This document shows positions 49,557-64,000 of a DNA stretch of 64,000 nt, piece after piece. The DNA is taken from NCBI RefSeq assembly GCF_022346925.1, contig NZ_JAKRNJ010000008.1, positions 1 to 64,000 on the forward strand, written 5' to 3'. Numbering within the stretch: position 1 is the first letter of the stretch; each line of letters begins with the position of its first letter. The translations under genes and the position numbers were made by a program. Under the pieces are notes generated by a model. The model was given only the letters and a program-made list of their open reading frames with translations. It did no database searches and was not told where the DNA came from. Source of the DNA: Microvirga sp. ACRRW (GTDB lineage: Bacteria; Pseudomonadota; Alphaproteobacteria; Rhizobiales; Beijerinckiaceae).

Positions 49557-50264
49557 ATGGCGGCATCCACCCAGCAACCGATCGATCTCTATTACTGGCC
49601 GACCCCGAACGGGTGGAAGATCACCATCATGCTCGAGGAATGCGGGCTGCCTTATGCGATCCATCCGGTGAATATCGGCAAGGGCGACCAGTTCAAGCCC
49701 GAGTTCCTGGCTTTCTCCCCCAACAACAAGATGCCGGCCATCATCGACCATGACGGGCCTGACGGGCAGCCGATCTCCGTGTTCGAGTCCGGTGCGATCC
49801 TGCAATATCTCGGCCGCAAGACGGGGAAGTTCTACAGCCAAGATGAGCGCCAGCGCGTCGAGATCGATCAATGGCTGTTCTGGCAGATGGGCGGCTTCGG
49901 CCCCATGCTCGGCCAGACGCACCATTTCCGCATCTATGCGCCGGAGCAGGTGCCCTATGCCATCGAGCGCTACACCAACGAGACCAACCGTCTCTACGGC
50001 GTGCTCAACAAGCGCCTCGCGGACCGGGACTTCGTAGCAGGCGAATATTCCATCGCCGACATGGCCATCGCCCCCTGGGCCAAGCTCTGGGAGCGCCAGG
50101 GCCAGAACATCGACGATTTCCCGCATGCGAAGCGCTGGCTCAAAGCGGTGCTGGAGCGTCCGGCGGTGAAGCGGGCCTTGGAAGTCGGGGCGGAAGATCG
50201 TGGCTCCAACGACATGAAGGATCCGGCGGTGCAGGCCATCCTGTTCGGTCAGAAGGCGCGGTAA
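49557..50264 (+). CDS. Glutathione S-transferase, YghU/Ure2p-like
   Basis: 235 residues. Start I-D-L-Y-Y-W-P-T-P-N-G-W-K-I-T-I-M-L-E-E (about 8-27), N-K-M-P-A-I-I-D (about 57), E-S-G-A-I-L-Q-Y-L (about 78) and I-A-D-M-A-I-A-P-W (about 168) match Nu-class/Ure2p-like GSTs. These enzymes act on peroxides or disulphides with glutathione. AAGGAGAGG precedes ATG 49557. Confidence 0.9.
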   Translation: MAASTQQPIDLYYWPTPNGWKITIMLEECGLPYAIHPVNIGKGDQFKPEFLAFSPNNKMPAIIDHDGPDGQPISVFESGAILQYLGRKTGKFYSQDERQRVEIDQWLFWQMGGFGPMLGQTHHFRIYAPEQVPYAIERYTNETNRLYGVLNKRLADRDFVAGEYSIADMAIAPWAKLWERQGQNIDDFPHAKRWLKAVLERPAVKRALEVGAEDRGSNDMKDPAVQAILFGQKAR

Positions 50265-50282
50265 GCCATATCGCTCCCAAAG

Positions 50283-50302
50283 GCAGCCCACTTTCGGGCT
50301 GC
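50283..50302. terminator. Hairpin between convergent GST and secreted-protein genes
   Basis: Arms GCAGCCC and GGGCTGC with a 6-nt loop; T-runs on either side are short. It overlaps the last base of the minus-strand stop codon. Confidence 0.45.
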
Positions 50303-50655
50303 TATATCCTCTTCCTGGTGGAAGCGGCCGGAGGCTTCGCGCATACCGATACATCGACCCGGGCAAGCGCCGCCTCGGTCCGTAGCCTGATAGCCCTGGC
50401 CCTTTGGGCGCTGAGGGGATCGCAGACAGGAAAATACTCGTCCGCTGCCTGATTGATCTCCGTCGCTTCTCTCCAAAGGAGGCATACAGCCTTGATCTCG
50501 GCTTCCTTTCCTTTGGGGCGCTCGCGCCGTCCGATCTCCATGACCTTGCGCATGGCCAATTCCCAACGGTCCTGGATGGCCTTTGTGCATTCCGCGGCCT
50601 GAAGCGGACCTGTGAAGGCGAGGAGAAGGGAAAGAGCGAAAAGGGGGCGTCGCAT
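50302..50655 (-). CDS. Secreted hypothetical protein with four cysteines
   Basis: 117 residues with a signal peptide (1-20, A-L-S-L-L-L-A-F-T-G-P-L-Q-A-A). The mature part is helical and starts E-C-T-K-A-I-Q-D-R-W, with cysteines at A-V-C-L, F-P-V-C-D and V-S-V-C-A. It may form two disulphides. No family recognised. Confidence 0.65.
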   Translation of the reverse strand: MRRPLFALSLLLAFTGPLQAAECTKAIQDRWELAMRKVMEIGRRERPKGKEAEIKAVCLLWREATEINQAADEYFPVCDPLSAQRARAIRLRTEAALARVDVSVCAKPPAASTRKRI

Positions 50656-50781
50656 AAGAAGCTCCGAAGAATGGCTTCTTTATTACGTATCAAATTATAT
50701 CCCGAGGATCAGGATAGGAAAATTTTATCCACCGCAGCTTTATCGCTCGGTTGGCTGCGGTGGATGCCTGACTGCCTTGGA

Positions 50782-51198
50782 TCAATTCACCTTCGCCCAG
50801 GTTTGCGAGCGGCAGATGAGGCCGCCCATGACGCAGCCGGAGAGTTGCATGGCCTTGCCCTCGAAGGTCATCTTGCCCGTATAGGTCTTGCCGTCCTTGT
50901 AATTGTAGAGCTGGCCGGTGAAGCCGTTGCCGGAGGGCTGGATGTTGGAGATCATCTGGACGCCGACGAGGCTTCGGGCCTTCAGGTTGGCGTCCGGATT
51001 GTTCACGTCCTTGGCGTCGCCCTGAACGGAAATGATGGTTCCGCAATGGGCCTGGCCGCATTTGGCGATGCGCACCCTGGTTTCGCCGCTCTCGCTCAAG
51101 TAAGTGCCGCTCGGGTCCTGAGCCTGGGTTTGAGCCTGGACCTGGGCTGCCCCCGTCAGCAGGAAAAGGTCAATGGCGGCAAGGGATAGAGACTTCAT
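50782..51198 (-). CDS. DUF2147 domain secreted protein
   Basis: 138 residues. Signal peptide about 1-22 (L-F-L-L-T-G-A-A-Q-V-Q-A). The mature region D-P-S-G-T-Y ... V-R-I-A-K-C-G-Q-A-H-C-G-T-I and G-Q-L-Y-N-Y-K-D-G-K-T-Y-T-G-K-M, L-S-G-C-V-M-G-G-L-I-C-R are the DUF2147 landmarks, a beta-barrel-like periplasmic fold. Function unknown. Confidence 0.85.
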   Translation of the reverse strand: MKSLSLAAIDLFLLTGAAQVQAQTQAQDPSGTYLSESGETRVRIAKCGQAHCGTIISVQGDAKDVNNPDANLKARSLVGVQMISNIQPSGNGFTGQLYNYKDGKTYTGKMTFEGKAMQLSGCVMGGLICRSQTWAKVN

Positions 51199-51315
51199 GC
51201 TGTTCCTCCGGCTCGGTCTTCACTGGACCGATCAGGGAAAAGACTAGAGGACAAGATTCAGCTTTCCAACCCGGCGCGCTCTTTACGATAACCCTTCGCA
51301 GGGGCGAAAAGGCGC

Positions 51316-51344
51316 TTGAGAGCTAAGGGTCTCGCCGCTATAAG
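51316..51344 (+). promoter_or_regulatory. Promoter of ndk
   Basis: TTGAGA (51316-51321), 17 bp, TATAAG (51339-51344), giving a predicted start near 51351 and a 37-nt leader. Confidence 0.7.
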
Positions 51345-51387
51345 CGCCGGACTTTCCGAATTTTTCCTCTAAAAAGGGTGACCATCC

Positions 51388-51810
51388 ATGGCCATCGAGC
51401 GTACTTTCTCCATCATCAAGCCCGACGCGACCGAGCGTAACCTGACCGGCGCCGTCAACGCCGTCATCGAGAAGGCCGGCCTGCGTATCGTCGCGCAGAA
51501 GCGCATTCTGATGAGCCGCCGCGAGGCCGAGACTTTCTACGCCGTCCACAAGGAGCGCCCCTTCTTCGGTGAGCTCGTGGACTTCATGGTTTCCGCCCCG
51601 GTCGTCGTGCAGGTTCTCGAAGGCGAGAACGCCGTTCTCCGCTACCGCGAGATCATGGGCGCCACGAACCCGGAGAGCGCTGCCGAGGGCACCATCCGCA
51701 AGCTCTACGCCAAGTCCATCGGCGAGAACTCGGTGCACGGCTCCGACAGCATCGACAACGCCAAGATCGAGATCGCCCAGTTCTTCTCGGGCAACGAGAT
51801 CGTCGGCTAA
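51388..51810 (+). CDS. ndk: Nucleoside diphosphate kinase
   Basis: 140 residues, the standard length. [14 protein letters not shown] at the start binds nucleotide; the phosphorylated active-site His is in N-S-V-H-G-S-D-S (about 117). It equalises NTP pools. Own promoter and a strong terminator make it a single-gene unit. Confidence 0.97.
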
Positions 51811-51841
51811 GCCTCATCAGGCTTTCCGAACGGAATGATCA

Positions 51842-51868
51842 GGCCGCCTTCAGGGCGGCCTTTTCTTT
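51842..51868 (+). terminator. Intrinsic terminator of ndk
   Basis: Arms GGCCGCC and GGCGGCC with a 5-nt loop, then TTTTCTTT. Confidence 0.92.
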
Positions 51869-51898
51869 GGCCTCCCGCTCCGTCATGATGCGCCCGCC

Positions 51899-54052
51899 AT
51901 GAACCAAGCTCCCCGCATCGACCGCCGCTCGTCCATCTGCCCGCACGATTGCCCCTCGGCCTGCTCCCTCGATGTGGAGGTTGTCGGGGCTAAGAGCATC
52001 GGGCGCGTGCATGGGGCGAAGACCAACAGTTACACGGCGGGCGTGATCTGCGCGAAGGTGGCGCGCTATGCGGAGCGCATTCATCATCCCGAGCGGCTGC
52101 TCTACCCGATGAAGCGCACCGGCCCGAAAGGATCGGGCCAGTTCGAGCGGATTTCCTGGGACCAGGCGCTCGACATCGTGGCAAAGGCCTTCCTGAAGGC
52201 CGAGGATGAATTCGGCTCGCAATCGGTCTGGCCCTATTACTATGCGGGCACCATGGGCCTCGTGATGCGCGACGGCATCAACCGCCTGCGCCACGTCAAA
52301 AAGTATTCCGGCCAGTATTCCACAATCTGCACGCCCATGGGCTGGACCGGCTATGTGGCGGGCACCGGCAAGCTCGCGGGTTCCGATCCGCGTGAGATGG
52401 CGGTTTCCGATTGCGTGGTGATCTGGGGCACCAACCCGGTTCACACGCAGGTCAACGTGATGACCCACGCCATGCGCGCGCGCAAAGAGCGCGGCGCGAA
52501 GATCGTCGCCGTCGACATCTACATGAACGCCACCATGAAGCAGGCCGACATGGCGCTGCTCGTGAAGCCCGGCACCGACGGCGCGCTTGCCTGCGCCGTG
52601 ATGCACGTGCTCTTCCGCGATGGCTATGCGGACTGGGATTATCTGGAGCGCTACACCGATCATCCGCGCGCGCTGGAAGCGCATCTCAAAACCCGGGATC
52701 CGGCATGGGCCTCCGCCATCACCGGTTTGCCGGTGGAGGAGATCGAGGCCTTTGCGAAACTCATCGGCACCACCAAGCGCACGTTCTTCCGCCTCGGCTA
52801 CGGCTTCGGGCGCCAGCGCAACGGCGCGGTCAACATGCATGCCGCTGCCTGCATTCCTGCTGTGACGGGTGCATGGCGGCATGAGGGCGGCGGTGCGTTT
52901 CATTCCAACAGCGGCATCTTCAAATGGAACAAGGCGCTGATTGAAGGGCACGAGGCCATCGACCGCTCGATCCGGCTGCTCGACCAATCGCAGATCGGGC
53001 GCGTGCTCACAGGCGATGCCGAGGCTCTCTATAACGGCCCGCCGATCAAGGCGATGCTGATCCAGAACACGAACCCGGTTTCGGTCGCGCCGGAACAGGA
53101 GCTGGTGAAACAAGGCTTCGCTCGCGAGGACCTGTTCGTCTGCGTGCACGAGCAGTTCATGACCGAGACGGCGATGATGGCCGATATCGTTCTGCCCGCG
53201 ACCATGTTCATGGAACACGACGATCTCTATTCCGGCGGCGGGCATCAGCACTTCCAGATCGGGCCGAAGCTCGTCGATGCACCGGGCGAGTGCTGGTCGA
53301 ACCACGAAGTCACGCGGGCCCTCGCCAAGCGCATCGGCGCGGAGCATCGCGCGTTCGACATGGAGCCGCGCGAGATCATCGACTGGACCTTGCGCAATTC
53401 AGGTTGGGGTTCCATCGAGGAGCTGGAGGCCGCCGTGCACAAGGATGTGCAGCCGCCTTTCGAGGAAGCGCATTACCTGAAAGGTTTCGGGTACCCCGAC
53501 GGCAAGTTCCGCTTCAAGCCGGATTGGACCTCCGTGCCGTCCTACAACAACGGCCCGATGGGGCCGTATAATGACATGCCGGAATTTCCGGATCATTGGG
53601 GCGTCATCGAAGCGGCAACGGAGGAATATCCGTTCCGTCTCGCAACAAGTCCGGCGCGCAGCTTTCTCAATTCCACCTTCACCGAGACGCCCGGTTCCGT
53701 TGCCAAGGAAGGCAGGCCCGAGGTGATGATCCATCCGCTCGACGCTGAGCGGCAGGATATTGCCGACGGCGATTGGGTGAAGCTCAGGAACCATCGCGGC
53801 GAGGTGTACCTGCGCGCGCGCCTGTTCGAGGGCGTGCGGCGCGGCGTTCTGATCGCGGAAGGCATCTGGCCCAACAAGGCTCATCCACAGGGGCGGGGCA
53901 TCAACACTCTCACCGGCGGCGATCAGGTTGCTCCCTATGGGGGTGCTGCCTTCCACGACAACCGCGTGGCGCTGGAGAAGGTGAATGGCGATCTGGCGGT
54001 GGAGACGCCACTCGCCACATTGCGCGAGAGAACCGAGCCGATTGTTGTCTAA
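51899..54052 (+). CDS. Molybdopterin-dependent oxidoreductase (formate-dehydrogenase/BisC-like large subunit)
   Basis: 717 residues. An N-terminal [4Fe-4S] motif C14-x3-C18-x3-C22 ... C51 precedes the molybdopterin-binding domains (S-W-D-Q-A-L-D, W-G-T-N-P-V-H-T-Q, G-G-A-F-H-S-N-S, N-T-N-P) and a C-terminal molydopterin dinucleotide-binding domain with L-A-T-S-P-A-R-S-F-L-N-S-T-F. The catalytic metal ligand is not identifiable by eye. No small subunit or fdhD-like chaperone adjoins it, so it may work with a partner encoded elsewhere. Start by position; no strong ribosome site before the ATG. Confidence 0.85.
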   Translation: MNQAPRIDRRSSICPHDCPSACSLDVEVVGAKSIGRVHGAKTNSYTAGVICAKVARYAERIHHPERLLYPMKRTGPKGSGQFERISWDQALDIVAKAFLKAEDEFGSQSVWPYYYAGTMGLVMRDGINRLRHVKKYSGQYSTICTPMGWTGYVAGTGKLAGSDPREMAVSDCVVIWGTNPVHTQVNVMTHAMRARKERGAKIVAVDIYMNATMKQADMALLVKPGTDGALACAVMHVLFRDGYADWDYLERYTDHPRALEAHLKTRDPAWASAITGLPVEEIEAFAKLIGTTKRTFFRLGYGFGRQRNGAVNMHAAACIPAVTGAWRHEGGGAFHSNSGIFKWNKALIEGHEAIDRSIRLLDQSQIGRVLTGDAEALYNGPPIKAMLIQNTNPVSVAPEQELVKQGFAREDLFVCVHEQFMTETAMMADIVLPATMFMEHDDLYSGGGHQHFQIGPKLVDAPGECWSNHEVTRALAKRIGAEHRAFDMEPREIIDWTLRNSGWGSIEELEAAVHKDVQPPFEEAHYLKGFGYPDGKFRFKPDWTSVPSYNNGPMGPYNDMPEFPDHWGVIEAATEEYPFRLATSPARSFLNSTFTETPGSVAKEGRPEVMIHPLDAERQDIADGDWVKLRNHRGEVYLRARLFEGVRRGVLIAEGIWPNKAHPQGRGINTLTGGDQVAPYGGAAFHDNRVALEKVNGDLAVETPLATLRERTEPIVV

Positions 54053-54143
54053 GTCTTAAGCCTATTTTCGCGTAAGCCTTGATCCTGCCGGGCCGAGCCT
54101 ATTCTTAAGCTCCGACGTGAATATTGTTCCTGGGGAGCCTTCC

Positions 54144-54506
54144 ATGATCTCGACCTTTCGCGCGCTGCTCACCGTTGCAGCGCTGACATTCAGCGCCACG
54201 GCAGCCCTTGCCGCCGCGTCCAACACACCGACCCTCTATACGCCCGACCCGGCTCTGAAGACCGCGACCATGGCCGATCTGCGGGCCCGCGTGAGCCAGG
54301 CCTGCTCCATCACCCAGGCCAAGATGCAGAACGTGGCGGAAAGCTCCTTGAGCGGCAAGTGCGGCTGCTATGCGGGCCGCACCATGCGCTCGCTCAGCGC
54401 CGATGAGGTGCAGGCCTATCGCGACACGGGCGTGTTCAACGACAGCGCTCGCGAGAAGGCCCTCGCTGCCATCGATGCCTGCAAGCTGCAACGCCCGCAG
54501 CTGTAA
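54144..54506 (+). CDS. Small secreted hypothetical protein
   Basis: 120 residues; signal peptide about 1-27 (L-L-T-V-A-A-L-T-F-S-A-T-A-A-L-A-A-A-S). The mature chain has cysteines in Q-A-C-S-I-T, K-C-G-C-Y-A and D-A-C-K-L, and a helical tail. ATG 54144 has GGGGAG 7 bp upstream. No family recognised. Confidence 0.7.
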   Translation: MISTFRALLTVAALTFSATAALAAASNTPTLYTPDPALKTATMADLRARVSQACSITQAKMQNVAESSLSGKCGCYAGRTMRSLSADEVQAYRDTGVFNDSAREKALAAIDACKLQRPQL

Positions 54507-54517
54507 GCAAGAATAGC

Positions 54518-54615
54518 GTCATCCCGGACGGCGCAGCCGATCCGGGATCGTCGGCAGGATATAGCGCTATACTCGTCTTGCGATCCCGGGTTCTGCTGCG
54601 CAGCCCCGGGATGAC
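54518..54615. repeat. Intergenic palindromic repeat, GTCATCCCGG family
   Basis: Starts GTCATCCCGGACGGCGCAG and ends CAGCCCCGGGATGAC, with inner GATCCGGGATCG and GCGATCCCGGG halves. Situated between a secreted-protein gene and purN. Confidence 0.8.
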
Positions 54616-54636
54616 GTGTTTCAGGGATGACGCGTT

Positions 54637-55281
54637 TCAGGAAGGCGAGCGCAACGCGCCTTCGCTGTTCCAGCCTTTCGAGAACACCACGCGGCTGCCT
54701 TCAAGCCGCGCGCTGCCGTCGCTGATCATGCGCAAAGCCTGCGGGTAGAGCAGGTGTTCCTGCACGAGGATGCGCGCGGCGAGGCTCTCTTCCGTATCAT
54801 TGGGGATCACCGGCACGGCGGCCTGGGCGATGATCGGGCCAGCATCAAGTTCCGGCACCACGAAATGCACCGTGCAGCCGTGAATGAGCACGCCTTCCTC
54901 AAGCACGCGGCGATGCGTGTGCACGCCACGGAACAGCGGCAGCAGGGATGGGTGGATGTTGATCATCCGGCCCGCCCAGCGCTCTACGAACCAATCGGTA
55001 AGCACGCGCATGAATCCGGCGAGGCAAATGAACTCGATGTTGTGCTGTTCAAGCACCGCATCCATCGCCTGTTCGAAATCCTCGCGGGTCGGATGCTCCT
55101 TGTGGTCGATGATCGCCGTCGCGATGCCAGCGGCTTTGGCGCGTTCCAGCCCGCCTGCATCGGGGCGGTTCGAGAGAACGAGGGCGATCTCGGCGGGAAA
55201 TCCCGGCGCGGCCGCGGCCTCGATCAGCGAGACCATGTTGGACCCGCGCCCGGAAATCAGAACGGCGACGCGGCGTGTCAT
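54637..55281 (-). CDS. purN: Phosphoribosylglycinamide formyltransferase
   Basis: 214 residues. V-L-I-S-G-R-G-S-N (7-15) binds the substrate phosphate; the catalytic segment N-I-H-P-S-L-L-P (about 109-116, Asn/His) and D-A-G-P-I-I (about 148) match PurN. It uses 10-formyl-THF in purine synthesis. Its ATG shares one base with the purM stop, so the two are coupled. Confidence 0.95.
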   Translation of the reverse strand: MTRRVAVLISGRGSNMVSLIEAAAAPGFPAEIALVLSNRPDAGGLERAKAAGIATAIIDHKEHPTREDFEQAMDAVLEQHNIEFICLAGFMRVLTDWFVERWAGRMINIHPSLLPLFRGVHTHRRVLEEGVLIHGCTVHFVVPELDAGPIIAQAAVPVIPNDTEESLAARILVQEHLLYPQALRMISDGSARLEGSRVVFSKGWNSEGALRSPS

Positions 55282-56357
55282 CAGAGCTTCAGCGAACCGG
55301 ACGTCTGCACGGGCTCACCGCTTGTGTGAGCGATGGTCTCGCCGATACGGACCGGGCTCTCGCCCGCCTGGCGCAGGCGCTCGATCACCGCGTCCGCCTT
55401 GTCGGCGGATGCGACCACGATCATGCCGATGCCGCAGTTGAAGGTGCGCAGCATCTCCGCTTCCGCCACGCCGCCGGTCTTGGCGAGCCAGCCGAACACG
55501 GGCGGGGCATCGATGGCGTTCAGATCGAGGCGCACGCCGACACCGTCGGGCAGCACGCGCGGAATGTTGTCGGGGAAGCCGCCGCCGGTGATGTGGCAGA
55601 GCGCGTTGATGCCGTCGCCGCCCTTCAGCGCCTGGAGCAGAGCCTTCACGTAGATGCGGGTCGGCTCGAGAAGCGCCTGGGCCAGCGTCTTACCGGAAGC
55701 AAACGGTGCGGGCGCATCCCAGCTGAGGCCGGAATGCTCCACGATGCGGCGCACCAGCGAGAAGCCGTTGGAGTGGACGCCGGAGGAGGGCAGGCCGATC
55801 AGCACGTCGCCCACCTTCACGTCTTTGGGGAGCAGCGTGCCGCGCTCGGCCGCACCCACCGCGAAGCCCGCGAGGTCGTAATCGCCTTTGGCGTAGAGGC
55901 CCGGCATTTCCGCCGTCTCGCCGCCGATCAGCGCGCAGCCCGCCTGGAGGCAACCCTCGGCGATGCCCTTGACGATGTGGACGCCGACCTCGGGGGAGAG
56001 CTTTCCGGTGGCGAAATAGTCGAGGAAGAAGAGGGGCTCCGCGCCCTGCACGATGATGTCGTTCACGCACATGGCCACGAGGTCGATGCCGATCGTGTCA
56101 TGGATGCCTGTATCGATGGCGATCTTCACCTTGGTGCCCACGCCGTCATTGGCGGCGACCAGGATGGGGTCCTTGAAGCCTGCGGCCTTCAGGTCGAAGA
56201 GGCCGCCGAAGCCGCCGATCTCCGCATCCGCGCCGGGGCGGCGGGTGGAGCGCACCAGGGGCTTGATCTGGTCGACCATGGCATTGCCCGCGTCGATGTC
56301 GACGCCCGCTTGGGCATAGGTCAGGCCGTTCGTCTGCTTCTCGGACTTCTCGGTCAT
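55281..56357 (-). CDS. purM: Phosphoribosylformylglycinamidine cyclo-ligase
   Basis: 358 residues from ATG 56357. The start [13 protein letters not shown] (about 9-21), the ATP-binding A-N-D-G-V-G-T-K (about 64-71), G-G-E-T-A-E-M-P-G and [11 protein letters not shown] are typical. Catalyses ring closure to AIR. GGGGA precedes ATG 56357; an upstream ATG at 56411 would give a poor extension. purM-purN is a common arrangement. Confidence 0.95.
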
Positions 56358-56456
56358 GGGCACATCCCCGTGTTGGCTCAGGGGAGTAAGGCGAGAGAGG
56401 GCCGGAAGCAAGGGGGAGGCGGCACTTTGAGAGCCGGTATGAGGCTCAAAATGAAA

Positions 56457-56483
56457 CAGGAGCCGGTGAGGTACCGGCTCCTG
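56457..56483 (-). terminator. Terminator of the methyltransferase operon
   Basis: 11-bp arms (CAGGAGCCGGT) with a 5-nt loop; leftward followed by TTTCATTTTG. It is 30 bp after the methyltransferase stop. Confidence 0.75.
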
Positions 56484-56513
56484 TGCAGTGAGAGATTTGC
56501 GCTTGCTTGAGGC

Positions 56514-57926
56514 TTATTTGGGCTCGCAGAAATAGATCCTGCGGTGGCCGCCCTTCAGGTCCTGGCTCTCGATGATCCGGAAGCGGGCGTTCAGCTCACG
56601 CTCGAAAGCATCCATGTTGTAGTCAGGATACTTTTCTTTCTTGTTCAGAAGCAGCTTCTGCACCATCTCGTCGGGCCGGTCCACGAACTCGATCACGAGC
56701 TTCGCGTCAAGCGAGCGCAGCCATTCCAGGAAGAGCGGAATCGGCACATTGGCCGAGAGGCTGATGTGGTGGATCAGCGCCAGGCAGACCACGAAATCGG
56801 GGCTGTTGCGGTCGGTGAAGCCCAGGCGCTCCGTGCCCGCCCATCCCTGGTTCGGGGAAGGGTTGGCGAGGTTCATGTAGAGCGGTAGGATCTTGCCAGC
56901 GGCGTTGCCCTTCTCACCGAGATAGAGCTTCTCCACCGCATCGTGGTCGCCGTCGACGGTGATCACCCGGTCGGAATATTCCGCGCAGATCTTCGAGAAG
57001 GTGCCCGTGTTGCCGCCGATGTCCCAAGCGGTGCCCCAATGGCTGGTTTTCGCGGCATTGCGGACAAAGGCGAGCTTCGCCTCGAAGGCCTGCTGCTCGT
57101 AGGAATGGGTGTTGGCGTATTCCGACCATTCCGTGTGCCGGATGGGGGATTGCAGTGACTGCACGAGCCGCTTCATGCTCTGCACGAGACCCAGCACCAT
57201 GGCGTCGGACTGCTTGAGGCTGTCGCGCTTCTTGGCGGGAGCCCGGTCCTTCTCGCTGCTCTCGACGCGGCCTTCGATCATGGCCGGAACCGTGATGTGG
57301 CTGGTTACGCCCTTCTTGAACCGCTTCGTGCCCTTGAAGTAGCGCGAGGCCTCGCTGGGGGTGAGGCCGTCCAGGTTGGAGCGCAGCACGGGCTGGAAGT
57401 CGAGGCCGAGATGGGCCTTGAGCATCAGCGGGTAGAGGAAGAGCATGCAGAACTGACGGTAGGCAGCCCAATGCTCGCCCTGCTCGCGGGGCTCGAAGGA
57501 GGGGATGTCGATGAAGACGGGCTTCGCGCCGACGAACTGGATGTTGAACGGCGTCGAATCCTTGATCGTCCAGCCTTCCTTGATGCCGCTCTCCAGAAGG
57601 TCGAGCTGCAGCAGGGCAGCGTCCTTCAGCATGGAGAAGGTCCACTCATAAGGGTAGGAGATCAGGGGCACGCGCTCGTGCGCCAGAACGCCCGCCCAGC
57701 CCTGGGCGAGGATGCCCTTGGCCGCTTCGTCTGCCGGATCGGCGAGAGTTGTCCGGACAATGAGGCCGCGCTCCACGTAATCCTTGAAGAAGGCGGATTG
57801 CTCGAGGGCCTTGAAGTTCTCGAGCGCAGCGCTCGTCACGCCACGAAGGATACGCCCTTCATGCTCGTAAACGCGGTTGGCGGGATCGCGGAACGATCCG
57901 TTGATCGGGAGCGCAACGTGCTTCAT
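56514..57926 (-). CDS. SAM-dependent methyltransferase, NoeA-like
   Basis: 470 residues. The N-terminal half (to about 260) is a conserved region without clear membrane helices, containing P-Y-E-W-T-F-S-M-L-K and S-T-P-F-N-I-Q-F (about 120-145), kinase-like in places. The C-terminal half is a class I methyltransferase with motif I A-W-D-I-G-G-N-T-G-T-F (about 297-307) and I-T-V-D-G-D-H-D (about 321). It resembles NoeA-type proteins involved in surface or Nod-factor modification. The ATG overlaps the stop of the small membrane protein by 4 bp, and the sulfatase gene lies just upstream, so all three are co-translated. Substrate unknown. Confidence 0.8.
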   Translation of the reverse strand: MKHVALPINGSFRDPANRVYEHEGRILRGVTSAALENFKALEQSAFFKDYVERGLIVRTTLADPADEAAKGILAQGWAGVLAHERVPLISYPYEWTFSMLKDAALLQLDLLESGIKEGWTIKDSTPFNIQFVGAKPVFIDIPSFEPREQGEHWAAYRQFCMLFLYPLMLKAHLGLDFQPVLRSNLDGLTPSEASRYFKGTKRFKKGVTSHITVPAMIEGRVESSEKDRAPAKKRDSLKQSDAMVLGLVQSMKRLVQSLQSPIRHTEWSEYANTHSYEQQAFEAKLAFVRNAAKTSHWGTAWDIGGNTGTFSKICAEYSDRVITVDGDHDAVEKLYLGEKGNAAGKILPLYMNLANPSPNQGWAGTERLGFTDRNSPDFVVCLALIHHISLSANVPIPLFLEWLRSLDAKLVIEFVDRPDEMVQKLLLNKKEKYPDYNMDAFERELNARFRIIESQDLKGGHRRIYFCEPK

Positions 57927-58144
57927 TGAATGTCACCGGCCTTCTTATCTTTCTTGAAGAAGTTTTTGACCTTAGCGACGTAGAGGCGGGCCGTATAGCC
58001 GACAGCCGCAAATGCGCCGAGGATAGCGGTGACGATGATGCTGGCGGAGCCGGGATCGACATAAGCCTGCGCCGACTGGGCCTGCGCGACCAGAAGAATG
58101 CCGGCCAGAACGGCCAGATGCCGGTGTGTTTTATTCATAGACAT
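57923..58144 (-). CDS. Small YVDPGS-motif membrane protein (copy 1)
   Basis: 73 residues. Signal-like helix M-S-M-N-K-T-H-R-H-L-A-V-L-A-G-I-L-L-V-A-Q-A-Q-S-A-Q-A is followed by A-Y-V-D-P-G-S-A-S-I-I-V-T, a second helix (I-I-V-T-A-I-L-G-A-F-A-A-V-G-Y) and a basic tail (K-V-K-N-F-F-K-K-D-K-K). Small proteins of this kind are known next to membrane sulfatase-fold genes; a role as enzyme partner is inference. The start overlaps the sulfatase stop by 14 bp and the stop overlaps the methyltransferase start by 4 bp. An almost identical copy is at 60003. Confidence 0.82.
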   Translation of the reverse strand: MSMNKTHRHLAVLAGILLVAQAQSAQAYVDPGSASIIVTAILGAFAAVGYTARLYVAKVKNFFKKDKKAGDIQ

Positions 58145-59630
58145 AGTCCTCAAACCTCTCGTACGTCTTGACTTGTGGAGGGGGGATGACGCCGAAGTCG
58201 ACTTCGTTGATGAAGGGGCTCTCGCCGCCTGCGAGGCACCGGACCAGGCTGGCCACGATCCTCCCATTGGTCTGGAAACGCTGCCCTTCGGGCGGCGTCA
58301 GGTAAGGCTCGCATTGTTCTGCGTTGATCACGGCTCCCAGAGTGCCATGGCGATCTTGCACGAAGAATTCCTTGTCCTTGGCGAACGAAATTTTGCGGGA
58401 TACCCAGGTCCCATGATCGCCATAGATGAAAACGATCGCAGTTGGATCGGATTTCCGGATTTCGGTGAGCATCCTGTCCATCGCTTTCGCCGCGATATCC
58501 GAGCGCTGCTCGAAATAAGCTCTGTAATTGGCATGATCCTTCACTGAACCTGCGAATACAGACAGCGTGTGGCTCGGATAAAGGACGTGCTGCATATAGA
58601 AGTGAGGGCCTGAATTCCTGTCTCTCGCAATGGTCTCGATCAAGTTGTAGGTGTAGTCGAGAAAAGAGAGGTCATTGCCGCCGGTCGTGGGGCCGTCGGA
58701 TTCCTTAAGGTCGCGGATCGAGCAGTAGCCGAAGAAACCGTAGCGACGCGCATCGTCCGTGAGGAAGCGGCAGGCCGAATAGGGGCGATAGAGATTATAG
58801 CTCGTCAGGTATTTTCCCTTGGATGGTCCGAAGAAGCCGCTCTCAAAGGTGAAGTGGGTCGTGTAGCCGTTGGCCGCGAGAATATGACGAAGTGCGCTCG
58901 GGGCTGCGCCTGTTATGGCTTGGGTGGTGTGCGGTTCTTCAAGGACCGTAGGACCCATGTTGAGAACATTCGCAAGTGAACGCTTCGTCGGAACGGCATC
59001 CGCGAAATTGTTTCGGATGAAGTTGGCTTTGTGCTTCTTCAAAACGCCAATGTAAGGCGGGCTCGGAACGCCGAGGAATTTGATCGCCAGGCTCTCCGGA
59101 ACCATCGCGTCGAAGGACAGGAAATAGAGGTTCGGCTTGCTCTTGAATTCTACGGTTTTGATGTTGGCCGGCACGGTCTGCTCAGTGTCCTCCTCGCCGG
59201 CAAGCAGCGACAAGGACGAGATGCCGATAAACAGGGCAACCACCACCGGCGCCCCGAGAACGAGCCATCGTCTCATCGAGCCGGCGCGAAGCACGATATC
59301 GAAGATCACCCAGTAGAGAGCCAGGATCGCGGCGCAGATGCCGATCTGCGCCCACACGCTCATCGCCCCAATATCTGCGCTAAGCACGATATAGAGCAAA
59401 TAGGTGTTGATCAAAGCAAACGCTGGGAAAACGATCCGAACGACACCTTTTGCAAAGATCAGGACCGTCGTTTGCGCCGCCAGGACGAGAGTTGTAAGGC
59501 CGATAGTAAGGAGAATATCGGATCTGGATACTTCTGCATGGGTGTTCAGGAGGGCATTGAACAACCAGAAGTATGAGATAGACGCTAAAAGAACAGGGGA
59601 AATCAGGCGCTGATTTATGCCCTTGCTCAT
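58131..59630 (-). CDS. Membrane sulfatase-fold hydrolase/transferase (copy 1)
   Basis: 499 residues from ATG 59630. Five N-terminal membrane helices (to about 155) and a periplasmic alkaline-phosphatase-superfamily domain: N-L-Y-F-L-S-F-D-A-M-V-P (about 165-176, metal Asp), T-K-R-S-L-A-N-V (about 214, position of the nucleophile Thr/Ser), and Y-G-D-H-G (about 403-407, metal Asp/His). The layout resembles phosphoglycerol or phosphoethanolamine transferases acting on surface polymers. It heads a sulfatase/small-protein/methyltransferase operon. A paralogue is at 60199. Confidence 0.82.
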   Translation of the reverse strand: MSKGINQRLISPVLLASISYFWLFNALLNTHAEVSRSDILLTIGLTTLVLAAQTTVLIFAKGVVRIVFPAFALINTYLLYIVLSADIGAMSVWAQIGICAAILALYWVIFDIVLRAGSMRRWLVLGAPVVVALFIGISSLSLLAGEEDTEQTVPANIKTVEFKSKPNLYFLSFDAMVPESLAIKFLGVPSPPYIGVLKKHKANFIRNNFADAVPTKRSLANVLNMGPTVLEEPHTTQAITGAAPSALRHILAANGYTTHFTFESGFFGPSKGKYLTSYNLYRPYSACRFLTDDARRYGFFGYCSIRDLKESDGPTTGGNDLSFLDYTYNLIETIARDRNSGPHFYMQHVLYPSHTLSVFAGSVKDHANYRAYFEQRSDIAAKAMDRMLTEIRKSDPTAIVFIYGDHGTWVSRKISFAKDKEFFVQDRHGTLGAVINAEQCEPYLTPPEGQRFQTNGRIVASLVRCLAGGESPFINEVDFGVIPPPQVKTYERFEDYVYE

Positions 59631-59839
59631 AATCTGTCGCCTGAACATATTGTGCGCCCCAAAATCGGCGCGCATCTTGCGGATGGCGTCTGGTGTGTCA
59701 AGCAAAATGCCAATGTTGTTGCATGCAACGCCGAGAAATGAATGATTTCAAGGCTCTGCGCCATCGAGGCGGTGCTTTGTCGGCTAAGTCCGAGCGGAGT
59801 AAAAGAGCCAGCTTATCAATGCGTTATGGCGCCAAGCTT

Positions 59840-60000
59840 GAGGGCTCGGCAAGCTCTCCATGCGTCAGAACGTCCTTCGGGTCCGCTGGCGGAATCCCAA
59901 GGCGAAGCAGGCGATGAGGTTGCGCTCCACATATTCCGAGAATCAGTGGGCGGGGTCGCTGGCCGATCCGATGATCGGGAGCGCAACGTGCTTCTTCGAT
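59840..60000 (-). pseudogene. Decayed 5' fragment of the NoeA-like methyltransferase gene
   Basis: On the minus strand, immediately after small-protein copy 2, the sequence AAGCACGTTGCGCTCCCGAT matches the start of the intact methyltransferase gene (57926), but its ATG has become AAG. A stop codon interrupts the frame after about 15 codons (D-P-A-H-stop), and about 100 bp are missing before a second matching block (T-A-T-G-T-G-G-A-G-C-G-C). This is what is left of a third gene after tandem duplication of the trio. Confidence 0.75.
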
Positions 60001-60002
60001 CG

Positions 60003-60212
60003 TCAGGCCTGCTTGTCTTTCTTGAAGAGGTTCTTGACCTTGGCGACGTAAAGGCGGGCCGTATAGCCGACAGCCGCAAATGCGCCGAGGATAGCGGTGA
60101 CGATGATGCTGGCGGAGCCGGGATCGACATAAGCCTGCGCCGACTGAGCCTGGGCGATCAGAAGGATGCCGGCCAGGGCGGCCAGATGCCGGGCTGTTTT
60201 ATTCGTAGACAT
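60003..60212 (-). CDS. Small YVDPGS-motif membrane protein (copy 2)
   Basis: 69 residues, nearly identical to copy 1: M-S-T-N-K-T-A-R-H-L-A-A-L-A-G-I-L-L-I-A-Q-A-Q-S-A-Q-A, then A-Y-V-D-P-G-S-A-S-I-I-V-T and a shorter tail (K-N-L-F-K-K-D-K-Q-A). It overlaps the stop of the second sulfatase gene by 14 bp, as in copy 1. The start at the first ATG is supported by that shared arrangement. What follows is the methyltransferase remnant. Confidence 0.82.
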   Translation of the reverse strand: MSTNKTARHLAALAGILLIAQAQSAQAYVDPGSASIIVTAILGAFAAVGYTARLYVAKVKNLFKKDKQA

Positions 60213-61710
60213 AGTTCTCAAACCTCTCGTTTTCATTGATCTGGCGTATGACGCCGAAGTCGACTTCGTTGATGAAGGGGCTCTCGCCGCCTGCGAGGCA
60301 CCGGACCAGACCGGTCACGATCCTGGCATTTGTTTGGAAACGCTGCCCTTCGGGCGGCGTCAGATAAGGCTCGCATTGTTCTGCGTTGATCACGGCTCCC
60401 AGAGTACCGTAGCGATCCTGCACGAAGAACTGCCTGTCCTTGTCGAATTGCACCGGCCGGGAAACAAAGGCTCCGTGGTCGCCGTAAAGGAAAACAATCG
60501 CAGTTGGATCGGATTTCCGGATTTCGGTGAGCATCCTGTCCATCGCTTTCGCCGCGATGGCCGAGCGCCTCTCGAAATACGCCTTGTAATTGTCATTGTC
60601 CTTGGCCGAACCCGCGAACAAAGGCAGCGTGTGGCTCGGGTAAAGGATGTGCTGCATATAGAAATGGGGCCCGGAATTCTTGTCCCGTGCGATGGTCTCG
60701 ATCAAGCCATAGGCGAAGTCTAAAAAGGACCGCTCCCGGACTGCGTTGATGACGCCATCGAAGATCTTGAGATCCCTGAGAGGGCAATAGCCGAAAAAGC
60801 CGTATTGACGGGCGTTGTCCGCCAGGAATTGGCAGGCGGAATGGGGGCGGTAGAGATTGTAGCTCGTCAGATACTGCCCTTTGGCCGACCCGAAAAATCC
60901 CGTATCGAATGTGAAATGGGTCTTATAGCCATTAGCGCTGAGGATGTATCCAAGCGCGCTTGGAACCCTGCCTGTGATGATGCGGTCAGCCTCCACGTCT
61001 CTCTGGGCAACGGGAGATAGGGTCAGGATATTCGCGAGCGCGCGCTTGGTCGGTACTGCATCCGAGAAGTTGTTCGCGATGAAGTTCGCGCCGTGTTTTT
61101 TCAGGACATCGAGATAGGGCGGATTGGGGACGCCGATGAACTTGCTGGAAAGGCTCACCGGAACCATGGCGTCGAAGGACAGGAAATAGAGGTTCGGCTT
61201 GTTCTTGAACTCTACGGTCCTGATGTTGGCCGGTGTGGCGGTGTTGTCTGCGCCGCTATCGACGAGGAGGGGCCATGCCGAGATGCCCGTGAACAGAGCG
61301 GCCAGGACCGGCACGCCAAGGACGAGCCATCGCTGCATGCGCCCGGCGCGCAGCACGATATCGAGGGCGACCCCATAAAGCGCCAGGATTGCCGCGCAAA
61401 TCCCGATTTGAGCCCAGAGACTCATGACGCCGATCTCGGCGCTCAGAACGATAAAGAGAAGATAGGTGTTGAGAAGGCTGAAAAGCGGGAAAAGCAGTTG
61501 AACGGCCGCTCTCGCCAAGAAGAACACGGCGATCTGGACGAGGATGACGAGGCTCGAAAGGGCAAGGATGAGAAAGATGTCGGACGTCGATATGTCGGTG
61601 ACAGTATTGATGAGAGCCTTGCCGAGCCAGAAATAAGAGATCGACGCCAGCAGAACGGACGCGACCAAGCTTTTGCTCATCCCCGATTTTTCAACAGGCT
61701 GCTGTGACAT
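60199..61710 (-). CDS. Membrane sulfatase-fold hydrolase/transferase (copy 2)
   Basis: 503 residues (493 if started at ATG 61680, where the alignment with copy 1 begins: M-S-K-S-L-V-A-S-V-L-L-A-S-I-S-Y-F-W-L). Same helices and catalytic segments as copy 1, including F-D-A-M-V-P and Y-G-D-H-G (about 410). The long N-terminal extension with Q-Q-P-V-E-K may be untranslated. The C-terminus ends with the conserved E-N-Y-V-Y-E. It diverges more from copy 1 in the N-terminal membrane part than in the catalytic domain, as expected for a paralogue under functional constraint. Confidence 0.8.
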   Translation of the reverse strand: MSQQPVEKSGMSKSLVASVLLASISYFWLGKALINTVTDISTSDIFLILALSSLVILVQIAVFFLARAAVQLLFPLFSLLNTYLLFIVLSAEIGVMSLWAQIGICAAILALYGVALDIVLRAGRMQRWLVLGVPVLAALFTGISAWPLLVDSGADNTATPANIRTVEFKNKPNLYFLSFDAMVPVSLSSKFIGVPNPPYLDVLKKHGANFIANNFSDAVPTKRALANILTLSPVAQRDVEADRIITGRVPSALGYILSANGYKTHFTFDTGFFGSAKGQYLTSYNLYRPHSACQFLADNARQYGFFGYCPLRDLKIFDGVINAVRERSFLDFAYGLIETIARDKNSGPHFYMQHILYPSHTLPLFAGSAKDNDNYKAYFERRSAIAAKAMDRMLTEIRKSDPTAIVFLYGDHGAFVSRPVQFDKDRQFFVQDRYGTLGAVINAEQCEPYLTPPEGQRFQTNARIVTGLVRCLAGGESPFINEVDFGVIRQINENERFENYVYE

Positions 61711-62046
61711 GGTGCCGGCCCAGATTTCTCAAAAGTTTCTTGCGGCGCCAGACGAGTCAGCGCAAATATAACATTGTCCCATAAAGCCTAAAGCAGGTGT
61801 CATCAAGACTTCATAGGCCTCTGTGACAAACATTCGCTGAGCAGGGAAACAGCTCAAGTTCGGTTCATCTTGACTGTTCGAACCTTAAGCCTGCAGAGGC
61901 CCGATTTATTGAGCTTTATGAGGGTGCGTCGGCGTTACTGCTGCGAATCATCCCTTCCGTTGAGGCTGCCAGCCACCGCCCGGCTTGTCCCTTCGGACCC
62001 TGTGTCGCAGGTTGCAGGAGCAACCGCGCCCCGGCATCATCGGCTC
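61711..62046. other. Intergenic region before the phosphatidyltransferase gene
   Basis: 336 bp between divergent genes. A CTTGAC (61869-61874) could be a -35 but no good -10 follows; GTTCGAAC (61876-61883) is an 8-bp palindrome. A leftward promoter for the sulfatase gene may be the AT-rich segment near 61760-61780. Nothing further is supported. Confidence 0.4.
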
Positions 62047-62577
62047 ATGACCATCCCGAACCTGATCACCATCGCCCGGCTCATCATGGTCCCCATCGTG
62101 ATCGTCATGATCATGCAGCAACGGTGGGCGGCGGCCTTTATCCTGTTCGTCGTGGCGGGCGTTTCGGATGGGGTCGACGGCTTCATAGCCCGGCATTTCG
62201 ACATGAAAAGCGAGTTCGGGGCCTATATCGACCCGATCGCCGACAAGGCGCTGCTGGTCTCGATCTATGTGGCGCTCGCCGTGGTCGGGGCGATTCCGAG
62301 CTGGCTTGCCATCGTCGTGGTGTCGCGGGATGCGATGATCGTCGCCGCCGTGCTCCTGTCATGGGTCATGAGCCGTCCGGTCGAGATCAAGCCGATCTGG
62401 TTAAGCAAGCTGAATACGGTGGCCCAGATCGGCTTTGCGGCCTTTGCCCTTGCGGCCAATGCCTATGGGGTGGAGCTTGCCGGTTTCGAGGATATCGCGA
62501 TGCTGGCCGTTGCCACCTTGACCGTGGCATCCGCAGGTGCCTATCTCGGGGGCTGGCTGCGGCACATGGCGGCCTAA
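62047..62577 (+). CDS. CDP-alcohol phosphatidyltransferase (PgsA-like)
   Basis: 176 residues with about five membrane helices. The catalytic motif D-G-x2-A-R-x8-G-x3-D-x3-D is present as D-G-F-I-A-R-H-F ... G-A-Y-I-D-P-I-A-D (about 43-65). The short length fits the phosphatidylglycerolphosphate synthase group, although cardiolipin-synthase relatives are similar. ATG 62047 chosen because it begins the conserved N-terminus T-I-P-N-L-I-T-I-A-R. Followed 27 bp later by the AI-2E-type gene. Confidence 0.85.
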   Translation: MTIPNLITIARLIMVPIVIVMIMQQRWAAAFILFVVAGVSDGVDGFIARHFDMKSEFGAYIDPIADKALLVSIYVALAVVGAIPSWLAIVVVSRDAMIVAAVLLSWVMSRPVEIKPIWLSKLNTVAQIGFAAFALAANAYGVELAGFEDIAMLAVATLTVASAGAYLGGWLRHMAA

Positions 62578-62604
62578 GAGGCGTTCTTAGAGTATGGAGT
62601 ACCG

Positions 62605-63717
62605 ATGACGATCCAACGGCAGATCGGATTCTGGGTCGCTGCGCTGGTCGTGGCGGTGCTCCTGCTGTTCGTGCTGCGCGGTATTCTTCTGCCGTTCGTG
62701 GCGGGCTTCGCGCTGGCCTATCTTCTCGATCCCCTGGCCGACCGGCTTCAGAAGATCGGGGTCGGGCGCCTTGGCGCCAGCCTCCTGATCCTGGTGATCT
62801 TCGTTCTCGTCTTCATCGTGACACTCATGGTCCTGGTGCCCTTCGCGGTTCAGCAGGTCGGGGCTTTCGTCGAACGCGTGCCGAGCTACGTGGCGAGGCT
62901 TCAGGAGCTGGCGAACGACCAGTTGAAGCCGCTGCTCGACCGGCTCGGCGCCAACGGCGCGTTGCCGGAAATGCAGACCTCGGTCGGCAACCTCATCAGC
63001 CAGGGCATCGCATGGATCGCCACCTTCCTTCAGGGGCTCTGGTCCGGCGGGCAGGCGCTGCTCGGCATCTTCTCCCTGCTGGTGGTGACGCCGGTGGTGG
63101 CCTTCTACATGCTCGTGGACTGGGACCGCATGGTGAGGACCATCGATTCCTGGATGCCGGTCCACCAGCGGGAGACAATCCGCGCCATCGCCCGCGACAT
63201 CGACCGCGCCATTGCGGGCTTCGTGCGCGGGCAGGCTCTGGTCTGCATCATCCTCGGCACCTTCTATGCCGTGGGGCTGACCGTGATCGGCCTCAATTTC
63301 GGGGCCCTCATCGGCATGACGGCGGGCCTCCTGAGCTTCATCCCCTATGTGGGCTCGCTCACCGGCCTCATCATCTCCATGGGCGTCGCCATCGTGCAGT
63401 TCTGGCCTGACTGGACCATGATCGCGGCCACGCTCGGCATCTTCGTGTTCGGGCAGTTCGTAGAGGGCAACATCCTGTCGCCCAAGCTGGTGGGCGATTC
63501 CGTAGGGCTGCACCCGGTCTGGCTGATGTTCGCGCTGCTCGCCTTCGGCGTGCTGTTCGGCTTCGTGGGCCTGCTGCTCGCCGTGCCGCTCGCCGCCGCC
63601 ATGGGCGTGATCGCGCGGTTCGCGCTGGGCCGGTATCTGGCGAGCCCCCTTTATCGCGGGACGGGGTCTGCGATCCTTCATCCTCGGGTCGAGGACAAGG
63701 CCGATCTCGATGCCTGA
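62605..63717 (+). CDS. AI-2E family transporter (UPF0118)
   Basis: 370 residues, about eight membrane helices with long loops. Typical sequence near the start L-P-F-V-A-G-F-A-L-A-Y-L-L-D-P-L-A-D (about 25-42), and G-F-V-R-G-Q-A-L-V-C-I-I-L-G-T-F-Y and N-I-L-S-P-K-L-V-G-D further on. Members have varied proposed substrates. The stop overlaps the start of hdaA by 8 bp. Confidence 0.85.
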   Translation: MTIQRQIGFWVAALVVAVLLLFVLRGILLPFVAGFALAYLLDPLADRLQKIGVGRLGASLLILVIFVLVFIVTLMVLVPFAVQQVGAFVERVPSYVARLQELANDQLKPLLDRLGANGALPEMQTSVGNLISQGIAWIATFLQGLWSGGQALLGIFSLLVVTPVVAFYMLVDWDRMVRTIDSWMPVHQRETIRAIARDIDRAIAGFVRGQALVCIILGTFYAVGLTVIGLNFGALIGMTAGLLSFIPYVGSLTGLIISMGVAIVQFWPDWTMIAATLGIFVFGQFVEGNILSPKLVGDSVGLHPVWLMFALLAFGVLFGFVGLLLAVPLAAAMGVIARFALGRYLASPLYRGTGSAILHPRVEDKADLDA

Positions 63718-64000
63718 TGCGCCCAAGCAGCTCGCCTTCGATCTGCCGCTCGATCCGCGTTACGGGGCGGAGGATTTTCTCGTCAGCCCCTCCAACGAGC
63801 AGGCCTATGGGCTCATCGAGAGCTGGCCGGATTGGCCGGATACGATCCTGCTTCTCATCGGCCCTCCCGGCAGCGGCAAGAGCCATCTCGCTTCGATCTG
63901 GGCGACAAACGCCCATGCCTGGACGGTGGATGCCCGCGAGATCACCCACGATAAGGTTCCGCATCTTGTCTCCAACGGAGCGCTCGCCATCGAGGACATG
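63710..64000 (+). CDS. hdaA: DnaA-related ATPase HdaA (5' part, truncated by window edge)
   Basis: 97 codons visible. Start M-P-D-A-P-K-Q-L-A-F-D-L-P (1-13) and Walker A G-P-P-G-S-G-K-S-H at 51-59 are typical of HdaA, an AAA+ protein of alphaproteobacteria that promotes hydrolysis of DnaA-bound ATP together with the DNA clamp and so limits re-initiation. The Q-L-A-F-D-L clamp-binding-like motif is near the N-terminus. It overlaps the AI-2E-type gene by 8 bp. The rest is outside the window. Confidence 0.85.
   Translation, partial: MPDAPKQLAFDLPLDPRYGAEDFLVSPSNEQAYGLIESWPDWPDTILLLIGPPGSGKSHLASIWATNAHAWTVDAREITHDKVPHLVSNGALAIEDM

Follow-up and report, generated by a model that had tools for sequence, protein, structure and literature searches.

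The region between positions 56514 and 61710 of a contig of Microvirga sp. ACRRW raises the question of what function could unite a NoeA-like gene with two tandem pairs of genes, each pair encoding a sulfatase-fold membrane enzyme and a very small membrane peptide with a YVDPGS motif. The window, meaning the whole stretch of DNA that was analysed, comprises 64,000 nucleotides (nt), namely positions 1-64,000 of NZ_JAKRNJ010000008.1. We propose, with a probability of roughly 0.5, that these genes constitute a horizontally acquired NoeA-type module for the modification of surface glycans, in which the peptide would serve as a tether and the sulfatase-fold enzyme would face outward.

All genes of the locus lie on the minus strand. 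In order of transcription they are sulfatase-fold copy 2 (60199..61710; 503 amino acids, aa), peptide copy 2 (60003..60212; 69 aa), a stub of about 49 nt resembling the 5' end of the NoeA-like gene (59946..59994), sulfatase-fold copy 1 (58131..59630), peptide copy 1 (57923..58144; 73 aa) and the NoeA-like gene itself (56514..57926), whose 470-aa product is predicted to combine a kinase-like N-terminal region with a C-terminal class I methyltransferase. The sulfatase-fold proteins, members of the alkaline phosphatase superfamily, are 69% identical to each other, and the two peptides 91%. Copy 2, which is hydrophobic over its first ~150 aa, matches PF00884 at 28.5 bits (cut-off 25); copy 1, for which ATG 59630, ATG 59648 and TTG 59705 are candidate starts, scores 16.4 bits and thus falls under that cut-off. 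In both pairs the stop of the sulfatase-fold gene and the start of the peptide gene overlap by 14 nt (ATGTCTATGAATAA and ATGTCTACGAATAA for copies 1 and 2, respectively), and peptide 1 is additionally joined to the NoeA-like gene by an ATGA overlap. These pairs and couplings, together with an offset of about 2.07 kb between the copies, had been noticed in a preliminary description of this DNA and were all recovered here, the offset being 2,068 nt (60199 minus 58131). A search of the organism's own genome (E-value, E, at or below 0.001) returned two sulfatase copies, two peptides and one NoeA-like gene.

The three genes form a conserved module. We surveyed 80 loci, the best 80 of at least 571 NoeA-like relatives, an uneven sample in which several stretches end at contig ends, and counted a sulfatase-fold neighbour at E below 1e-5 within 700 nt. 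The peptide occurs in 65 of them, a sulfatase-fold gene in 62 and both in 51, which bears out, by the earlier suggested check of adjacency in other genomes, the idea that the three genes form a module. The count of 65 refers to a strict motif; a looser one gives 66, the addition being a wrong-frame match (L136), and nine other loci have a match to the hidden Markov model (HMM) alone. By phylum name as recorded, some of the records being uncertain bins, the sample holds 41 loci from Actinomycetota, 16 from Pseudomonadota, seven from Planctomycetota, three from Chloroflexota, two from Armatimonadota and 11 single records, and the 51 loci with both partners span nine named phyla, a Patescibacteria record and two unplaced ones. 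As a background level, these loci contained 12 distal sulfatase open reading frames (ORFs) in ~398 kb, and a 184-kb control that included the window had none except the window's own two. The arrangement is less constant than the association: peptide, NoeA-like, sulfatase-fold is the order seen most often, some loci are divergent or arranged in other ways, and the sulfatase-fold gene lies upstream on the same strand in 6/80 loci. Hence order and overlaps, which the preliminary description proposed to check, are not conserved elsewhere, and the 14-nt overlap is not a general feature. Among 385 genomes of the class, 48 match the NoeA-like profile (24 at E 1e-17 or better, own genome included, the rest being short methyltransferase matches), 36 the peptide and three, again counting the own genome, the window's branch of the sulfatase-fold family. 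One of these three (G406) has the peptide, a NoeA-like gene and two tandem sulfatase-fold genes. Tandem sulfatase-fold ORFs stand beside a NoeA-like gene in 5/28 stretches examined (L012:4451-9180, L014:3505-8216, L049:781-5582, L051:8147-11250 and L056:3121-6638), and the doubled enzyme is therefore a recurrent theme. Neighbours in other genomes include an rfbA-like gene (named by eye) and annotated phosphomannomutase and mannose-1-phosphate guanylyltransferase genes.

The window NoeA-like protein aligns with Sinorhizobium meliloti NoeA at 31-32% identity over 98% of its length, that is, as a full-length homolog. Four residues, R28, D123, N128 and D140, are invariant in 50 NoeA-like sequences. 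In the family member Lani_1194 the kinase site is Arg/Asp/Asn/Asp, according to the passages of PMC9758233 drawn on in this work, and the four residues probably correspond to R38 and the D/N/D site of that protein. The C-terminal class I methyltransferase is recognised by Methyltransf_23 in 36/50 members (best E 1.7e-7); the window protein itself reaches E 0.002, below the curated cut-off. As the methyltransferase matches fall at 301-419 and the kinase-like motif at 123-140, the protein appears to be a fusion of an N-terminal kinase-like domain, an assignment taken from PMC9758233 in the part used, and a C-terminal methyltransferase. Its earlier naming as a methyltransferase was thus correct for one domain and incomplete for the protein.

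A similar amendment applies to the sulfatase-fold enzyme, whose original name describes the fold and is likewise incomplete. Across 20 aligned sequences D180, H360 and D411 are invariant, and position 221, which aligns with the nucleophile, is by eye Thr in 17/20 and Ser in 3/20 (Thr221 in copy 2). Formylglycine sulfatases carry a C/S-x-P-x-R motif. Both window copies read A-V-P-T-K-R at this stretch and lack that motif, and a true formylglycine (S1) sulfatase is accordingly unlikely. The Thr/Ser at the aligned nucleophile position and the missing formylglycine motif make a phosphotransferase more likely. Profile comparisons to PDB reach lipoteichoic acid synthases (4uoo, 5.7e-7; 2w5q, 2.6e-5), in favour of this reading, although sulfatases score better (best 2.8e-13), and they extend to the primase 4uop (3.2e-4). 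The fold is clear, and it is from the nucleophile residue that we infer the reaction. Phosphotransferases of the LtaS/EptA type have a Thr nucleophile and Asp/His metal ligands; in the alignment Thr/Ser at 221 and the invariant D180/H360/D411 are candidates for these roles, and H412 is Glu in a part of the family (DHG to DEG; L075, L077, L078, L079, L080, L116, L120 and L145).

The third component is the peptide. A27, Y28, D30 and G32 are invariant in 20 aligned peptides, and both window copies have a single hydrophobic span from about residue 29 followed by a basic tail; in their AY[LV]DPG-type motif, single span, basic tail and NoeA-like/sulfatase-fold neighbours they share the features of a wider family, which we term YxDPG. 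Since a Met lies within 12 aa of the Tyr in 32/36 peptides from Actinomycetota, the longer leader found in 11/14 Pseudomonadota peptides, in which no Met is so placed, seems dispensable, and on these alignments the core of the peptide is the YxDPG motif, span and tail. The peptide also occurs fused to the N-terminus of a CDP-glycerol:poly(glycerophosphate) glycerophosphotransferase-type domain (PF04464) in 3/3 ORFs longer than 400 aa, all on the minus strand (L214:418-1722, L215:394-1767 and L216:403-1680; 48.8, 42.4 and 30.1 bits, cut-off 22.1), and in L216 a sulfatase-fold gene lies next door. Because the same domain is a separate protein in one system and is fused to a cytosolic enzyme in another, an anchor is the simplest role, and we take the peptide to be a putative membrane anchor. 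Five further YxDPG-type peptides (L202, L209, L211, L213 and L217), with neither partner matched in the short stretches fetched, may hint at other contexts. Pfam gave nothing for the peptide at E 1, and its NCBIfam matches are weak ones to antiporter subunits (best E 0.024), far below the cut-offs. The strings YVDPGS and YVDPGTG are absent from the open-licence papers of PubMed Central (PMC), where YLDPG/YVDPG retrieves solely papers with unrelated titles; the earlier remark that the peptide is undescribed thus agrees with this literature, and a description may exist outside that set.

We infer activities, substrate, topology and tethering as follows. The cytosolic NoeA-like protein would be both kinase and methyltransferase for a lipid-linked sugar or glycan, with an effect like that of WbdD. 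The peptide, as a one-span membrane protein with its basic tail in the cytosol, would act as a tether that keeps this protein at the inner membrane, next to the sulfatase-fold enzyme. The catalytic domain of the latter would lie outside and act on that same glycan with Thr as nucleophile, either transferring a group that contains phosphate or removing one. The two enzyme/peptide pairs could provide two specificities or dosages, with one NoeA-like protein serving both.

Several observations weigh against this proposal. No kinase appears among the 25 Pfam families listed for 50 NoeA-like members, which comprise methyltransferases and scattered single hits. The window sulfatase belongs to a rare branch, with matches in 2/384 other genomes of the class and one short fragment in 1/397 other genomes of the phylum, and as sole query it found nothing in the genome-contig collection and nothing in plasmids. 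Its similarity to NoeB is weak (hhalign probability 3.2, E 0.014); NoeB itself matches PF00884 at 43.1 bits (cut-off 25). In 14 of the 65 loci with a peptide no sulfatase-fold gene was found within 700 nt, some of these stretches being short. The peptide could also be a lipid-binding or regulatory subunit. Moreover, because the module sits between a purM-like and a pgsA-like gene, outside any evident polysaccharide cluster, the context suggests no substrate.

The best surviving alternative, one we consider unlikely, makes the peptide an accessory subunit or stabiliser of the sulfatase-fold enzyme and its proximity to the NoeA-like gene secondary. It draws on the 14-nt sulfatase/peptide overlap of both window copies and on four of 14 stretches examined (L200, L203, L205 and L208), in which the peptide adjoins a sulfatase-fold gene and the stretch has no NoeA-like match. 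Of the four genomes concerned, G247 and G256 are outside the 48 that match the NoeA-like profile, and G400 and G381 have a NoeA-like match elsewhere on the contig. The same four cases support the earlier idea that the enzyme/peptide pair can occur without the third gene. However, this alternative is at odds with the 14/65 loci where the peptide accompanies the NoeA-like gene and no sulfatase-fold gene was found within 700 nt, and with the fusion of the peptide to a third type of enzyme, PF04464.

A second alternative, which we regard as improbable, is that the trio modifies small secreted signals, such as Nod-factor-like lipo-oligosaccharides, rather than a surface polymer. NoeA and NoeB are reportedly known as host-range nodulation genes from the work of Ardourel in 1995. 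The S. meliloti nodL-noeA-noeB genes are likewise described in the papers used, PMC9758233 among them, as host-range nodulation genes, and the action of NoeA/NoeB on Nod factors is still termed a hypothesis there. In the same direction, noeA is truncated in strain M162, which gave no nodules on 17/27 Medicago truncatula genotypes. The module is nevertheless present in lineages that include Actinomycetota, Planctomycetota and a Patescibacteria record, which are not known to us to produce Nod factors; the rfbA-like, phosphomannomutase and mannose-1-phosphate guanylyltransferase neighbours elsewhere also speak against this alternative.

The history of the two pairs bears on whether both are in use. 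Over 497 aligned codons the sulfatase-fold genes show a synonymous divergence (dS) of 1.10 and a nonsynonymous to synonymous ratio (dN/dS) of 0.19. The first 100 codons are saturated, with a proportion of synonymous differences (pS) of 0.79-0.81; in the last 147 codons pS is 0.29-0.43, and dS between the peptides is 0.17. The four longest identical runs (95, 62, 62 and 41 nt) had no equal in 2000 shuffles that kept codon position. Saturation at synonymous sites in the 5' part means that the duplication was not recent: the tandem copies of the preliminary description are real, and a recent origin for them is rejected. The copies are old paralogs that have become alike over the 3' third and the peptide, probably through gene conversion; strong constraint at the DNA level on the 3' region is an alternative. 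The dN/dS of 0.19 over the whole gene fits purifying selection.

The decayed third gene reported after copy 2 also stands only in part. About 49 nt after peptide 2 align with the start of the NoeA-like gene at 43/49 positions (hand count), with a score of 80 that was attained in 0/500 shuffles (59700-60005 tested), and, as first described, the ATG has become AAG and a stop follows after ~17 codons. Beyond the stub, the remainder scores 30, which 6/500 simple shuffles matched, and the family HMM finds nothing better than E 0.5, so that clear alignment is limited to ~49 nt and the decay of a full gene is not demonstrated. The stub is about as similar as the peptide region; therefore a conversion or duplication endpoint would account for it without a lost gene, and the stub may mark a breakpoint instead of being what is left of a decayed gene. 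We give little credence to the view that the second pair is a non-functional relic kept intact by gene conversion alone, for although the homogenised 3' end and the presence of a mere stub after copy 2 would suit it, both ORFs are intact and retain D180, H360, D411 and Thr221, dN/dS is low across 497 codons with saturated 5' synonymous sites, and tandem sulfatase-fold genes recur in other loci.

The surroundings of the module point to acquisition from outside. It is flanked by a purM-like gene (minus strand, up to 56357) and a pgsA-like gene (plus strand, from 62047), both named by eye, the insertion site with these flanks spanning 55281..62577. The pgsA-like gene stands beside purM without the module in 20/22 loci of the same genus (1.5-kb flanks), the other two not showing a pgsA-like gene within 1.5 kb; when the module was compared with these 22 loci by blastn, just four matches of 36-40 nt appeared. 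A diverged peptide and NoeA-like gene are adjacent in 3/36 other genomes of the genus; these three were also the only cases among the 60 relatives searched, and the window sulfatase had no match in the 36 congeners or the 60 relatives. The three congeners carry sulfatase-fold genes of another branch next door, as detected by iterated profile, G005 and G002 having two in tandem. A tree built from 64 NoeA-like proteins places the window protein as sister to that of Bradyrhizobium jicamae (L084) with support 100/96, and S. meliloti NoeA falls in another clade (support 100/100) with the two congeners included, of the three that have the gene. The window peptide likewise has its best match among the 80 loci in L084 (21/42 residues, versus 17 and 15 for two congeners). 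From this shared affinity it follows that the peptide and the NoeA-like gene probably arrived together by transfer, and the whole module was probably acquired horizontally. Third-position GC is similar in the NoeA-like gene (0.85) and purM (0.90) and is 0.68-0.74 in the sulfatase/peptide pairs, a difference that may reflect different arrival times or histories of adjacent genes.

Of other features, a hairpin of 12 pairs on the minus strand 3' of the NoeA-like gene (56456..56484) is possibly the end of the operon by its position and stem length; the region has four such terminator-like sites against 5.1 expected in shuffles, so that the signal is weak apart from place and stem length. No sigma-70-like promoter was found in 56300-62200, and no Rfam match at gathering score in 50000-64000. 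Elsewhere in the window, 29671-31473 encodes a 600-aa ORF with hydrophobic stretches seen by eye.

Among known systems, lipoteichoic acid synthases (LtaS and relatives), whose nucleophile is Thr, resemble the window enzyme in being membrane-anchored members of the alkaline phosphatase superfamily with Thr at the nucleophile position, as reflected in the profile match of 5.7e-7, and differ from it in that the similarity is low and the window has no teichoic acid context. In WbdD the kinase lies after the methyltransferase (matched in WbdD chains at about 53-106), the reverse of the order in the NoeA-like protein, where the kinase-like domain comes first. This terminator of the Escherichia coli O9a O antigen otherwise shares with it the combination of kinase and methyltransferase in one protein and a glycan end as target (PMC11231755, in the passages used). 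WbdD and Lcin_0519, a kinase-methyltransferase family distinct from Lani_1194, are remotely related to each other at most (PMC9758233, likewise). The NoeA (Lani_1194) family, in which a methyltransferase is preceded by a kinase-like domain in one protein, was reported in 2022 together with two conserved neighbours, NoeB being one such neighbour; in the sections of PMC9758233 used here it agrees with the window in domain architecture, in the Arg/Asp/Asn/Asp site and in having one neighbour with an alkaline-phosphatase fold. Those sections contain no description of the peptide; the neighbour Lani_1193, reported there in 65% of 816 neighbourhoods, is perhaps the same small protein as the YxDPG peptide.

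In S. meliloti ml46 (CP140882, pSymA), the one annotated record from which we know it, an unnamed 71-aa gene (L154:3754-3969) lies between nodL and noeA, overlapping the latter, and its product, containing ...AHAYLDPGTGSMLVQGLIG..., is a peptide-family member of the YLDPGTGS type; noeB, which carries a sulfatase domain, follows noeA. Searches of open-licence PMC papers for nodL/noeA with small ORFs gave nothing on this gene, as judged by titles. The kinase-methyltransferase and its link to NoeB are already published (PMC9758233, as far as the passages used go). New, as far as our searches reach, are the constancy of the peptide, its presence in the nodulation operon, the sulfatase-fold association without NoeA and the PF04464 fusion. 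Somewhat more tentatively than the proposal for the window itself, we suggest that the YxDPG peptide could be an unnamed, widespread tether of cytosolic phosphate-handling glycan enzymes (NoeA-type and, by fusion, CDP-glycerol-type), bringing them to the inner membrane next to a phosphotransferase that is LtaS-like and faces outward, and the overlooked fourth gene of the nodL-noeA-noeB operon. Taken together, the small nodL-noeA intervening gene and the occurrence of the trio in several phyla define a testable general system, in which a tether would link a kinase-methyltransferase with a phosphotransferase-like enzyme that faces outward, and the fusion to a teichoic-acid-type enzyme hints at phosphate-containing surface glycans as its theme. 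The S. meliloti operon (nod box n5) is like the window in its full-length NoeA homolog, its YLDPG peptide gene just before noeA and its adjacent sulfatase-fold NoeB; it is unlike it in the order peptide-noeA-noeB and in a NoeB distant from the window sulfatase, whereas the window lacks nodL and has two enzyme/peptide pairs between purM-like and pgsA-like flanks.

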